From: Polytrichum commune
Lineage: Eukaryota; Streptophyta; Polytrichopsida; Polytrichales; Polytrichaceae
DNA: 64,000 bases
Assembly (NCBI GenBank): GCA_950295325.1
Contig: OX485803.1
Location: 41,681,554-41,745,553, forward strand
Direction: 5' to 3'
Of the stretch, positions 9,622 through 15,044 are shown piece after piece; position 1 is the stretch's first letter; the number at the start of each line of letters is the position of its first letter. The notes beneath the pieces were generated by a model that saw only the letters and a program-made list of their open reading frames with translations, was not told where the DNA came from and searched no databases. Both the position numbers and the translations under genes were made by a program.

Positions 9622-12600
9622 ATGTCAACTGTGGTGATGAACTTGAATCACCGGCGCCACGAAGATTGCAGTCCTCGATCCCTCGAGGCGAAGTACACTC
9701 CGAAGCCTGACAAGCCTTGGAGCTGGTCGCAACCTCTCCGTTACCTTCTACAAGAGCAGCGCCTACTATGCACGGTCATAGGGATCGCACTCACTTCTGC
9801 ATTCTTCTATCTCCAGCCAGACTACGGATTCCAATACGGATTCCACGGCAAGCAGCAACAACCGGTCGAACTTCTCGATGCTTCCTCCAGCTCGCAGATC
9901 GGTGCGACTTTCGATCGTCACGCGCGTGAGCTTGGGGCTAGGGTTCGGGATGCCATGGGGGTTGCCGGCTCCGGCAAACTGCCGCTAGGGTTGCGGCGGA
10001 GGCCGTTGCGGATTGTTGTGACGGGCGGGGCGGGATTCGTAGGGAGCCATCTGGTCGACAAGCTCATCCTGCGCGGCGACAGAGTGATTGTGGTGGACAA
10101 TTTGTTCACGGGACGGAAGGAGAATGTGATGCACCACTTTGGTAACCCGCAGTTCGAGCTCATCCGCCATGACATCGTGGAGCCGCTCATGCTGGAGGTC
10201 GACCACATCTACCATCTCGCTTGCCCTGCCTCGCCGGTGCATTACAAATTCAATCCTGTCAAGACCATCATATCCTCCTCGTCTCATCTCACCTAGGTTT
10301 TCTTCATCAAAATTTTGATCTGTCTGTGCTTCAGTGAGCCTCCGAAACGTGTCGGATGTAGTCGGATGTATGTCGGATCTACACCCGAAACATGTCGGAT
10401 GTAGGTCTACCATGCATTTCGCTTGCCCTGCCTCGCTGGTGCATTACAAATTCAATCCTGTCAAGACCGTCACATCCTCCTCTTCCTCCAATACATGTCG
10501 ATGATGATTTTCGGTTTCCGTTAAGGGCCGTTTGCACTACAACACAGGCGGTTGTGGTTGTGGTTAACCACAATAATCAACCACAACTGGGAATGGTTTT
10601 TTCCATTCACTTGTCCTGTGCGAATCCTTTTAAGGTCGCGATTAATGGTGGGGTTGGTCTTCTAGATTGCAATCAGTTCTTGGCGGAGAGAGGGAGTTAT
10701 TTTATAAATAAGAGTGTACCTCTCATTCATCCAACATAAAAATTTGACTTGTCGATTCATCTCAACTAACCTCGATTAAATTACATTCTGGATCTTTAAA
10801 GCTAATTTCAGTGTCAAATCAACTAACAAAAGTCATCTCCGTGTTATTATGTTGGATGGATGAGAGGTGTGCCCATATATGAAAATTCCTTCTCTTCATC
10901 ATTTTTATTTGGCTTAGGTCTTCAGTTCGAGACGAGATTGAAGTGACATTATTCTTGTTGGTCTTGGAATGTAGTGTCAAAGTGGAAACCTCCTCAAGTT
11001 TTTCCTTAGACCTTGGCATTGAAGTGCTCTAGCGATGCCACATCAGCATGAATGATCACCCCAAGGGTGGTTAACCATGTGGAGTGGTGGGCTTTGATGG
11101 GGTAGACTCAGGTGGTCGTGGTTGTAGTTAGGATTTGTTGTGCCATTCCCATGAAAATAAAACCAAAAGAAAATAAACCACAACCATAACCAATGTAAAC
11201 AACCCTTGATAGATGGACAAAGAAGTATGTTGACTATGAACTCATAGTTGATTTTGGATATGTCTGGCTGATGTGTTGTGTCGTGATTGGGTTGGAGCAC
11301 ACTAGGTACACCATAGGTAAGGTCATTCCCCAACTCGACTTAAATCCAATCATTTGGCTTTGTCCGGTATTGGGCCAGGCAAGGATACCCAACTTACATA
11401 TAGCTTTTCAGGTCTTGGTGTTCCCATGCCCAAGCATCACAAAATTTGGCTATGGTTAGTAGGCATGCTCACCCCATACAACACATGGTGTGATCACCTT
11501 AGTTGCTCCAAGCCATAGACGATTTTGTTACATGTCTTGTTGATGTGTTGCAATGTGATTGCCTGAAAGCACGCTTCATACCTGTTGTAGGCAACGCTCT
11601 CCGATATGCACTTTAAACGGCTTGACCTATCCCGATCATGTGACTGTGTCCACTATTGGTATGAAATTCACAAAGCTACCAGGATTCATGTCTTGATGGG
11701 TGATGTTTCGTAGCACCTACCAAGGGGGAGGGTGACAAAGTTGATTTTCTATGTAGAGTCCGGGAGTTCCTTTTTAGGCAAAAGAAACACTTAAAACTGG
11801 GGTTAGAGATCCTAAAGTAGCCTTGTGAGATTAAATTCGGATGAATCAACAACAAATCTACAATGGGGTAGGTTTCCACCCCACCCCCTACATCAACACT
11901 TTGTTTGGAAAACGAAATACGTCTTGACGCACTTGCATCTTGAGCACGACAAACTACAATTGCTAGTTGTGCTCATCCCATACAATACCTAGTCCAATCA
12001 CAGTGTCATAGGATGATGTATGGTTTGTCACAAAACAATTGATTTTTGAAACCAATTGTCCATGTCATATCCACATCGATCAAGACCATGTTGAATCCAG
12101 CATGGAAATTAACTTTCGGCACTCCAAGTGTTGAACCAGACAACAACCTATGAGAGATCTATGAGTAGATTAATTATTTCCCAGTTGCTCCTTAATTTGC
12201 AATGTTCACAAGACCAATGTTGTGGGTACTCTGAACATGCTTGGGCTAGCAAAGCGTGTGGGTGCTCGCTTCTTGCTCACGAGTACAAGCGAAGTGTATG
12301 GAGACCCTCTCGAGCATCCCCAAACAGGTCTTTACTCACGATCTCTGCAATTTGGGTCCTTCTTGAATTGAACACTTTGATGAGTGGCCGCTTGATTAGT
12401 TTCTAGTGAACCCTTTCTAAATGCTCGTGGCTTGTGGTCGGGTATGGGTCGAACGTTCCACAATATCGAATTCCATGGAGTAGAGACATATTGGGGAAAC
12501 GTGAATCCAATCGGTAAGGACACCACTTTATGCCCCGTGATTTTGTACCACTTGTCTCATTACAAATTCCACATTCATTACATACAGCCATGGCCCATTG

Positions 12601-15044
12601 TAAGTAAAAGGAAGTACTTGGATGAATGTCAAAATGGAAATCTTGGTGAGGCCCATCAATCAACCCTTGCATAAATTTGTGATTTAACCATGGTTTCAAA
12701 ATGTTACCAGGTGTTCGAAGTTGTTACGATGAAGGAAAACGAACAGCAGAGACATTAGCTATGGATTACCATAGAGGCGCCGGTGTTCAGGTGGGACATT
12801 TTCAAGTGCTTCTTGCTATCTATGGGATAAATGTGCCTCTGTACTCTGATTTTGTTGGTGTTTTCATAGTGTTGTGGCTGGGGCGGGGACGTGTGAGATT
12901 GTAAATTTCACTGTGTAAAATGATGGAATGCTTTATTCTTAGGTTCGGATAGCTCGGATTTTCAACACTTACGGTCCTCGGATGTGCATTGATGATGGCC
13001 GTGTGGTCAGCAACTTTGTAGCCCAGGTTTGCCCGATTCCAAATTTACTCCTTAATCCCCAAGTTCAAATCAAATCAAAGATAAAATATGAGTTGAGACC
13101 TCATTTGGATTGAATACAAGAGAAAATTGTGAAGGCTGAATTTAGACTACGTCTATATAGTTCCAATAAGGCTCATTTGTCATTATGCCCACCAAGTCAG
13201 TCTGGAAGCATATTTTTCCGAAAATAGTTGAAATTTCAAGATAAATCAAGAATACTTACATTTTTCTCTCTATATTTAGCTTAACCTACATGACTTTCTT
13301 AGCTTGATGGAAAGAGGAACATTTGATCATGTTGCTAACCTTACCACTTCTATATGTATCCCATGTAAAGATCACATTTCAAAATACCTTTTATCAATAA
13401 GCTTTTAGAAGTGATGGACAGTTTTGATAGCTATGATCCAAATTCTTTTTTTTTGCTAAGAATCAATGTCTGATAAATTAAAACTGAGAGTCCCTTTTTG
13501 AGACATGTAGGCCATTAAGTGTTGAATGACCAAAACCTCATGATGTAGAGCCTAACCAGTCAAAGTTGCAATCAAAATATTGCATTCGATTCAAGTTTGA
13601 ACTGAAGGATCCAGATTATTGCCTGTTATTTTCCCACAGGCACTTCGCAGAGAGCCCATGACAATATATGGTGATGGAATGCAAACGCGGAGCTTTCAGT
13701 ACGTAGATGATCTGGTAAGCTCGCTTTATGTGACCACTAAATCTCGCTGATTATATCAATTCCTGTAAATTCCTTGACCACATTCCACGATGTTTCAATC
13801 TTGCTTTACAAATGCAAATCATCTCATCTTCAATCCTTACAAGAACATTAAATTCAATATATAATTTGCAGGTGGAGGGTCTTGTGCGGTTGATGGAAAG
13901 TGAGCATGTGGGCCCATTCAATCTTGGAAACCCTGGCGAGTTCACGATGCTAGAGCTTGCAGAGGTATGATAAATCAATTGCCGTTTGATTTAGATCCAA
14001 GATATAAAAGTTACTACAACAGCTTGGCCATCCATAATTTTCTCTTTGGCAGAAATGATGTTGGAATTGGATTCCTAGACCCCACATTAGCATCAGATCA
14101 TCTCCGGACATCCTTAAAGTCTCGCTTCGTGCAGATTTTGGAATTTGTAGGGTTTGGATAGTAAAATGTGACAAACTACCTGCTTAATCTAGTTCATTAA
14201 GCTTGAATTTTATATATAACATCGTTGGGGGTCATTAAAGAAAGTTTACATTCAAAAGGAAGACATTACTCCAAGAGGTTGTGAAAAGATAATGGACCTT
14301 ACCATGCGAGTGTGACATTACAAAAAATTCGATCTCGGCCTTTCATGAAAGTCTTACAACAATTTGTGATGTCCCGGTTGGAGTCCACCAATGTTGGACT
14401 AATATTGTCTTTCTCTTCACTACCATTTGGGTATCTAAAATGAGGATTTCGCAATTTTTAATATCAATAGGGTAAGGATGTTTGAAAATATAGTTATTAT
14501 CCATATCATTTGGTTCTATATATCATGCAAGAACCTTCATACCTAGGTAAAGTCATGTAGTATCAATATGTTTTAAAATAGTATTGACCCAAATTCAAGT
14601 AACAAAGATTCTTTAATGTTAATATCTGATTGATATTACAATTTTGAAACCCATGGGTAGGTTCTTTGATACCATTGTTAGTGTTGTTTATTGATACTAT
14701 GCGTTCACCTATATATTGGTCCAATATAGGAGTCCACCATGGAGAGGAGGATTTGTCGACGAAAAATTAGAAATGCTTGCCACTCCCTTGCATGGAAGTT
14801 GACCCTAATTATTCAATTTGTTTTTTGTCAGGTTGTGAAGGAGGTAATAGATCCTTCAGCACAGATAGAGTTTCAAAACAACACATCAGATGATCCTCAC
14901 AAGCGGAAACCAGACATCACAAAGGCTAAGAATTTATTGGGGTGGGAGCCTAAGATACCTTTGAAAGAAGGCCTCCCTCATATGGTCCGGGACTTCCGCC
15001 TGCGTATATTCGGCGACAATGTTCAAGAAGAAGAAGGCAATTAA
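9622..15044 (+). CDS. UXS: UDP-glucuronate decarboxylase, membrane-anchored (UDP-xylose synthase; 8 exons, 446 aa)
   Basis: UXS converts UDP-glucuronate to UDP-xylose with bound NAD, supplying xylose for wall polysaccharides and glycoproteins. Exons are 9622-10269, 12210-12327, 12484-12513 (a 30-nt microexon), 12711-12790, 12943-13026, 13640-13714, 13872-13964 and 14832-15044, summing to 1341 nt in one frame. Residues about 49-64 are a hydrophobic type II anchor after a short cytosolic tail, as in Golgi-type UXS. The Rossmann motif GGAGFVG is at 135-141, and the SDR catalytic pair YDEGK at 271-275 follows [10 protein letters not shown]. Other landmarks are [49 protein letters not shown] and [10 protein letters not shown]. 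The length equals that of plant membrane UXS isoforms. Intron 1 is AT-AC; the others are GT-AG. Confidence 0.95.
10407..10490 (+). pseudogene. Partial duplicate of UXS exon 1 end and its 5' splice site
   Basis: About 80 bp repeat the end of exon 1 and the intron start (10209-10285) roughly 200 bp downstream. The shared core includes cgcttgccctgcctcg and gcattacaaattcaatcctg. In the copy the donor ATATCC has become ACATCC, which breaks the U12 signal. Between the copies are several tcggatgta repeats (10346-10404). Confidence 0.85.
10524..11206. mobile_element. Possible TIR element in UXS intron 1, interrupted by another MITE
   Basis: The left edge AGGGCCGTTTG and right edge GTAAACAACCCT are imperfect inverted repeats, continued by gttgtggttgtggtt on the left and aaccacaacc on the right. 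Flanks are TTA and TGA, an imperfect fit to a Tourist-type duplication. Another TIR element (10686-10898) lies within. Boundaries are tentative. Confidence 0.4.
10686..10898. mobile_element. MITE of the TCTCATTCATCCAACAT family
   Basis: Long inverted ends of about 45 bp: a G-rich edge (gagagagggag), then acctctcattcatccaacat, mirrored by atgttggatggatgaggt-like sequence (atgttggatggatgagaggt) and a ccttctcttc edge. A related element is at 41605-41851 and a left half near 31488. No coding content. The superfamily is not assigned. Confidence 0.7.

Follow-up and report, generated by a model that had tools for sequence, protein, structure and literature searches.

The UDP-Xylose Synthase Gene and Its First Intron

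The window (the whole 64,000-nucleotide stretch of Polytrichum commune DNA analyzed here) carries a gene that is well supported, from its predicted protein, as a UDP-xylose synthase (UXS) gene. The gene model comprises eight exons joined across an AT-AC intron 1 and six GT-AG introns (Table 1), and encodes 446 amino acids with zero internal stops. Residues 128-434 of this model align to human UXS1 (2b69) with an E value of 2.4e-135, compared to 3.1e-43 for the best chain without this enzyme name, and Pfam places the protein in Epimerase and GDP_Man_Dehyd, which are epimerase/dehydratase families. The gene identity given in the preliminary description is thus borne out by the human UXS1 match, the ungapped protein, and the Pfam families. 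By its N-terminal hydrophobic stretch (residues 48-66, mean hydropathy 1.64), the predicted enzyme is of the membrane-anchored (type II) kind, and would presumably reside in the Golgi.

Table 1. Positions within the window of the predicted UXS exons, the AT-AC intron with its splice signals, and the repeated exon end and donor
Feature	Position	Strand	Description	Basis
UXS exon 1	9622..10269	+	N-terminal membrane anchor and NAD-binding TGGAGFVGS; NPVKTI at end	translated model, hydropathy, human UXS1 match from residue 128
71-nt direct repeat, reference copy	10213..10283	+	57 nt of exon 1 end and first 14 intron nt
Predicted intron 1, AT-AC, U12-type	10270..12209	+	phase 0, 1940 nt	splice signals; place and type common to 5/5 membrane-anchored paralogs found
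U12-type 5′ splice site	10270..10277	+	ATATCCTC	sequence
71-nt repeat, second copy, intronic	10415..10485	+	93% identical, 202 nt downstream, donor ACATCCTC
U12-type branch site	12188..12196	+	CTCCTTAAT; branch A is the 8th letter, 12195, then 14 nt
Terminal AC, 3′ splice site	12208..12209	+		sequence
UXS exon 2	12210..12327	+	KTNVVGT at start	gene model
UXS exon 3	12484..12513	+	30 nt, flanked by GT-AG introns	gene model
UXS exon 4	12711..12790	+		gene model
UXS exon 5	12943..13026	+		gene model
UXS exon 6	13640..13714	+		gene model
UXS exon 7	13872..13964	+		gene model
UXS exon 8	14832..15044	+	includes stop codon	gene model

Read directly, the letters at the junction of exons 1 and 2 are ...AAGACCATC/ATATCCTCCTC...GTTGCTCCTTAATTTGCAATGTTCAC/AAGACCAATGTT, or, in a longer form, ...AATCCTGTCAAGACCATC / ATATCCTCCTC ... 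GTTGCTCCTTAATTTGCAATGTTCAC / AAGACCAATGTTGTG. The donor fits the U12-type 5′ splice site rule RTATCCTY, and the branch site near the 3′ end has 8/9 letters of the TTCCTTRAY consensus, with no polypyrimidine tract in the stretch between the branch site and the 3′ end, TTGCAATGTTCAC (as judged by eye and unscored). We note that a stricter U12 donor rule, RTATCCTT, has also been published (PMC2846911), and that this rule fails at +8 in 4/5 of the donors of the membrane-anchored UXS genes described below. Joining the exons at the AT and AC ends gives NPVKTI/KTNVVGT, which is ungapped with respect to human UXS1 (NPIKTLKTNTIGT) in the 2b69 alignment. An AT-AC intron of the U12 class at this position, a branch site about 14 nt from its end, and an exact restoration of NPVKTIKTNV had all been proposed earlier, and all three agree with what we find, the first by virtue of the donor, the branch site, the AC end, and conservation among paralogs.

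Taking these signals together, intron 1 is almost certainly a conserved U12-type AT-AC intron that is removed by the minor spliceosome, and we infer that the window UXS transcript is indeed spliced by the AT-AC route. In the established scheme for such introns, U11 and U12 recognize the donor and the branch site together, after which U4atac/U6atac/U5 come in. For the window gene, U11 and U12 would thus jointly recognize ATATCCTC and the TCCTTAAT branch site, U4atac/U6atac/U5 would join after this recognition, and exon 1, with NPVKTI at its end, would be spliced in phase 0 onto exon 2, which starts with KTNV.

The phase 0 placement departs from the phase preference that minor introns usually show (PMC10639083). 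As for the frequency of such introns, AT-AC ends are given as about 0.06% of splice sites across the plants surveyed in PMC6310983, and AT-AC introns as 26% of the U12-type introns of Arabidopsis in one database (PMC7367187) and as 4.8% of U12 introns in another count quoted in PMC5932401. The UXS AT-AC intron is unreported in the literature we searched, but may already be listed in U12DB-type databases or supplementary tables. The kind of intron is already known, and what our sequence comparison adds is a test of its conservation among the membrane-anchored UXS paralogs.

Placement of the Splice Signals and Conservation among Membrane-Anchored Paralogs

The number of candidate signals in the window is unremarkable: ATATCCTY occurs 6 times on both strands, compared to 4.56 ± 2.02 in shuffled sequence, and TCCTTRAY occurs 10 times, compared to 11.29 expected. 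Significance by motif counts alone was dropped, as both counts are at chance level. The placement of the motifs, unlike their number, exceeds chance, because ATATCCTY would be met at any single predetermined base with a probability of 4.8e-5 (the position of the junction being set in advance by the conserved protein), because only 26 of the 7322 AC sites on both strands of the window are preceded by a branch match of 8/9 or better at a distance of 10-16 nt, and because the same arrangement recurs in 5/5 of the membrane-anchored paralogs found.

These paralogs were collected in two ways. A search of the genome with exon 1 DNA gave four further UXS genes, of which one lies on C4 (L001), two on C2 (L002 and L003), and one on C1 (L004). 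A protein search of the genome gave the remaining exons of these paralogs, a sixth UXS gene, and remoter matches at 29% identity, and the long single matches at this level of identity look like other epimerase-type genes. As a DNA query, exon 2 matched only L003 besides the window, so that this DNA search misses diverged exons, and exon 2 of each paralog was located through the protein matches and the motif AAGACCAATGT.

In all four paralogs, the exon 1 end reads ...AAGACCATC/ATATCCTY, with the donor starting at the very base where it starts in the window gene, and the far end of the intron reads ...AC/AAGACCAATGT, such that the ATATCCTY donor and the AC end are present in 5/5 of the membrane-anchored UXS genes found. 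The AT-AC introns measure 1940 nt in the window, 1521 nt in L001, 793 nt in L002, 798 nt in L003, and 528 nt in L004; in the same order, the branch sites match 8, 7, 8, 8, and 8 of nine consensus letters, and 14, 12, 11, 11, and 14 nt follow the branch A. The branch match of L001 is weak, as a score of at least 7/9 is also reached by 281 of the 7322 AC sites on both strands of the window. An N-terminal hydrophobic 19-mer, starting between residues 43 and 50, is likewise present in 5/5 genes, with mean hydropathies of 1.64-2.33 (the window gene having the lowest value).

When the 300 nt before and the 117 nt after the AT-AC intron are compared, these exon stretches are 77-84% identical between genes, except for the L002/L003 pair (99.5%), and KTIKTNV is identical in the five genes. 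BLAST comparison of the introns between genes gave L002/L003 at 96%, one 20-nt match between L004 and the window, and nothing else. Against this background, the letters of the donor and of the branch site stand out as retained. The donor letters look as though they have been kept by selection, because the intron interiors (those of L002/L003 apart) are unalignable while the donor persists between exons that are only 77-84% alike. We note that the five paralogs share descent, and thus represent at most four diverged lineages and not five independent trials. The AT-AC intron itself appears to predate the duplication of the membrane-anchored UXS subfamily, and gene predictors that rely on GT-AG introns would be expected to mis-model five UXS genes of this genome. 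L002 and L003 (C2:48.10 and 48.12 Mb) are arranged head to head, approximately 18 kb apart; judging by the identities of their exon stretches and AT-AC introns, this pair is a recent inverted duplication.

Tandem Copies of the Exon End and Donor

Part of the variation in intron length can be related to repeated sequence. The 71-nt direct repeat in the window, a feature absent from the preliminary description, spans the boundary between exon 1 and its donor (Table 1), and its inner copy matches in 27/30 letters, compared to a 99th percentile of 20 in 200 shuffles. The intron of L001 (on the reverse strand of C4) contains five tandem units of approximately 260 nt, at intron positions 1, 261, 522, 781, and 1050 (steps of 259-269 nt), each of which opens with the exon end and donor. 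The four inner donors of this intron read ATATCTTC, ATGGCCTC, GTATGCTC, and GCATCCTC, and the corresponding inner copies match in 27, 23, 23, and 21 of 30 letters, respectively, compared to a 99th percentile of 19 (again from 200 shuffles). A tandem-repeat finder run on the L001 intron returned nothing, which is unsurprising at a similarity of 61-84% between copies, and no copies above the shuffled control were found in the introns of L002, L003, and L004. In the two introns with copies, ATATCCTY is kept in 0/5 inner donors; the outer donor is intact in 5/5 genes.

The first and third units of L001 are 79% identical, and the second and fourth 84%, and this pairing suggests that the units arose via stepwise doubling. 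Tandem duplications across the exon/donor boundary have partly lengthened the introns of the window gene and of L001, with only the outermost donor keeping its sequence, and such copies illustrate one route by which introns of this kind lengthen. We take the inner copies to be relics, the decay of which could be explained by drift alone.

It could also be argued that the inner copies are active, serving either as decoys or to recruit U11 and so modulate splicing at the true donor, in a manner similar to the USSE. This is compatible with our main reading of the intron, but we consider it quite improbable. The single window copy and the four L001 copies, at their spacing of approximately 260 nt, do stand above the shuffles, and tandem U12 donors are described as recruiting U11 in the U11-48K and U11/U12-65K genes (PMC5473595), where, as in the UXS introns, U12-type donors are repeated within one pre-mRNA. 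Unlike in the USSE, however, the UXS copies lie 202-269 nt apart, include the exon end, and have altered sequences in 5/5 inner donors, such that the intact tandem U12 5′ splice sites by which a USSE is recognized are absent from the UXS introns. In addition, three of the five genes (L002, L003, and L004) manage without a copy above control, and the loss of ATATCCTY fits neutral drift, as we estimate that many octamers would be broken anyway at the identities seen. The reading of the inner copies as relics of intron growth is therefore the one that we retain.

GT-AG Pairs and Other Routes across the Junction

To consider GT-AG splicing of the same junction, pairs were scanned with donors from -60 to +120 and acceptors from -120 to +60 about the junction. 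In this range, the GT-AG pairs that keep the frame and avoid stops number 5 in the window gene, 11 in L001, 6 in L002, 6 in L003, and 38 in L004, of which 0/66 over the five genes (and 0/5 in the window) yield the protein obtained from the AT-AC join. The earlier statement that GT-AG sites are unable to produce this junction is thus correct insofar as none of the window pairs gives the conserved protein, but its wording was too strong, as five in-frame pairs do exist.

Given these five stop-free pairs close to the window junction, a GT-AG intron could in principle be used in place of the AT-AC intron. One such intron would have the exon end at 10280 and the next exon start at 12185 (GT at 10281 and AG at 12183-12184), resulting in a 12-residue insertion; the nearest other pair, CCT/GTCAAG with AG at 12211-12212, would delete five residues (VKTIK). 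We nevertheless consider the use of any of these pairs to be extremely unlikely: all of them alter a stretch that is ungapped with respect to human UXS1 and that includes the KTIKTNV shared by the five genes, the donors CTC/GTCTCA and CCT/GTCAAG appear weak (by eye, unscored), and 0/4 paralogs have a GT where the window gene has the donor of the 12-residue insertion. Removal of the AT-AC intron by the major spliceosome, which is known for other AT-AC introns (PMC2831892, PMC6310983), has a practically negligible likelihood here, as +5 is C in 5/5 of the membrane-anchored UXS genes, compared to the G described at +5 for the sodium channel AT-AC introns that the major spliceosome removes (PMC2831892), and a U12-type branch match (7-8/9) is present in all five.

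Two further configurations were considered. A twintron with a nested GT-AG intron was rejected at the level of the window's 12-residue donor, which is without a GT counterpart in 4/4 paralogs. As for a retrocopy that could stand in for a cDNA, the 50 protein search matches include no close intronless copy of UXS.

A Sixth UXS Gene and the Supply of UDP-Xylose

The sixth UXS gene (L008) differs from the other five in the type of intron that it carries in this part of the coding sequence. Its intron is of the GT-AG type, has a length of 199 nt (C1:71574060-71574258), begins with the donor AAG/GTCCTAAAC, and interrupts the coding sequence 6 nt before the point at which the AT-AC intron does so in the other genes (NPVK/TIKTN). 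Neither RTATCCYY nor YYCCTTRAY is found on the gene's own strand in the 5.5 kb read. The exon that carries TGGAGFIGS opens with QSKMRILVTGG and has no anchor, whereas in the other five genes the anchor and the NAD-binding motif share exon 1. Because its NAD-binding exon lacks an anchor, unlike those of the other five genes, L008 is probably cytosolic, although an anchor exon could lie further upstream; we take this gene to resemble the cytosolic UXS enzymes of plants.

A slid conversion between intron types is a fair reading of the L008 intron, because a similar U12 to U2 shift has been described between two nematodes, namely in an SR gene of Trichinella and Caenorhabditis, where conversion of a U12 AT-AC intron into one of the U2 GT-AG type goes along with a three-residue displacement of a splice site (PMC2846911). 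As in that gene, the GT-AG intron of L008 lies within a few codons of the AT-AC place in its homologue; unlike the nematode case, the UXS genes are paralogs within one genome, for which the conversion could have run in either direction. Independent gain of the L008 intron, or the reverse order of change, are possible alternatives to a slid conversion. Whichever holds, this is a metabolic gene family with a minor intron in 5/5 of the membrane-anchored members found and an ordinary intron 6 nt away in L008.

The presence of L008 also affects how far UDP-xylose supply may depend on minor splicing. In Arabidopsis stems, most UDP-xylose is described as being supplied by cytosolic UXS enzymes (PMC6018967). 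The preliminary description had tied UDP-xylose supply as such to the efficiency of the minor spliceosome, and this link would hold for the membrane-anchored arm, but sits poorly both with the GT-AG intron of L008 and with the mostly cytosolic origin of UDP-xylose in Arabidopsis stems. Based on the gene structures, dependence on the minor spliceosome would touch the membrane-anchored UXS arm and not the whole of the UDP-xylose supply, making the membrane-anchored genes and L008 a natural pair for asking whether minor splicing limits UDP-xylose on the Golgi side.

Minor-Spliceosome Components and an Altered U6atac

Ten land plants, mosses among them, are reported to carry an AT-AC U12 intron in the CBP20 gene (PMC5932401), which provides a point of comparison within the same genome. 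The CBP20 gene found here (L014, G000:C3 near 45.605 Mb) has a 202-nt intron of the form ATATCCTC...TTCTTTAAC...AC, removal of which yields DEYRTDYDAGRGGYGKL (DYDAGRGGYGK), and this intron offers a positive control when minor splicing is assessed in the same plant. Like plant CBP20 intron 4 as described in PMC5932401, the UXS intron has AT-AC ends, a TTCCTTRAY-like branch site, a conserved place, and a variable length; CBP20 intron 4 falls between the core and the tail of its protein, whereas the UXS intron lies within the catalytic domain, in phase 0.

The genome model search gave a single U6atac above the cut-off (91.2 bits; L007, the same locus as L012, at G000:C4:35254560-35254679, + strand), with 46 of the 23735 first-look candidates of this family being scored. 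In its donor-pairing stretch, this RNA differs from the Rfam consensus by GCCG in the position of AAGG, reading UGAGCCGAGAGAAGG as compared to UGAAAGGAGAGAAGG. The remainder of the RNA and its T-run terminator look intact, and plant-type promoter elements are seen by eye upstream. The core GAGAGAAGGTTAGCA has three matches in the genome, two of them outside of U6atac, while AAAGGAGAGAAGGTTA has zero exact genome matches, and 36 matches with one mismatch compared to 40 for the reversed control.

In the standard register, two G residues of U6atac pair with positions +5 and +6 of the donor. In this register, the altered U6atac would leave +6 and +7 unpaired, and a C at +8 would gain a G partner. 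Such a C is present in 5/6 of the AT-AC donors read (UXS and CBP20), and ATATCCTY is intact in 6/6 of the AT-AC introns read (five UXS and one CBP20). That the ATATCC introns of this genome are spliced with a U6atac of changed donor-pairing stretch nevertheless seems unlikely to us, as an assembly gap or an unread second U6atac gene could be the source of the oddity, and the U6atac change is a lead rather than a result. If it is real, and if the GCCG U6atac works, then donor choice would proceed without the classic pairing at +6 and +7, leaning instead on U11 and on CENATAC-type proteins.

In the same genome model search, U11 scored 68.9 bits, above the cut-off. CENATAC/CCDC84, described as promoting the splicing of AT-AN minor introns (PMC8280824), is represented by three pieces on C2, the best of which scores 98.1 bits, also above the cut-off, and runs through three stops, as expected of matches that span introns. 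U4atac gave no match with either a guessed pattern or the Rfam model, the control for which was silent everywhere, so that absence of this RNA is not implied. U12 snRNA was found at 87.6 bits, above the cut-off. A second U12-like copy (L006, G000:C1:4725816-4726008, + strand) scores 52.9 bits, with a gathering score of 53; its 3′ half has diverged, and its 5′ region resembles that of the better copy.
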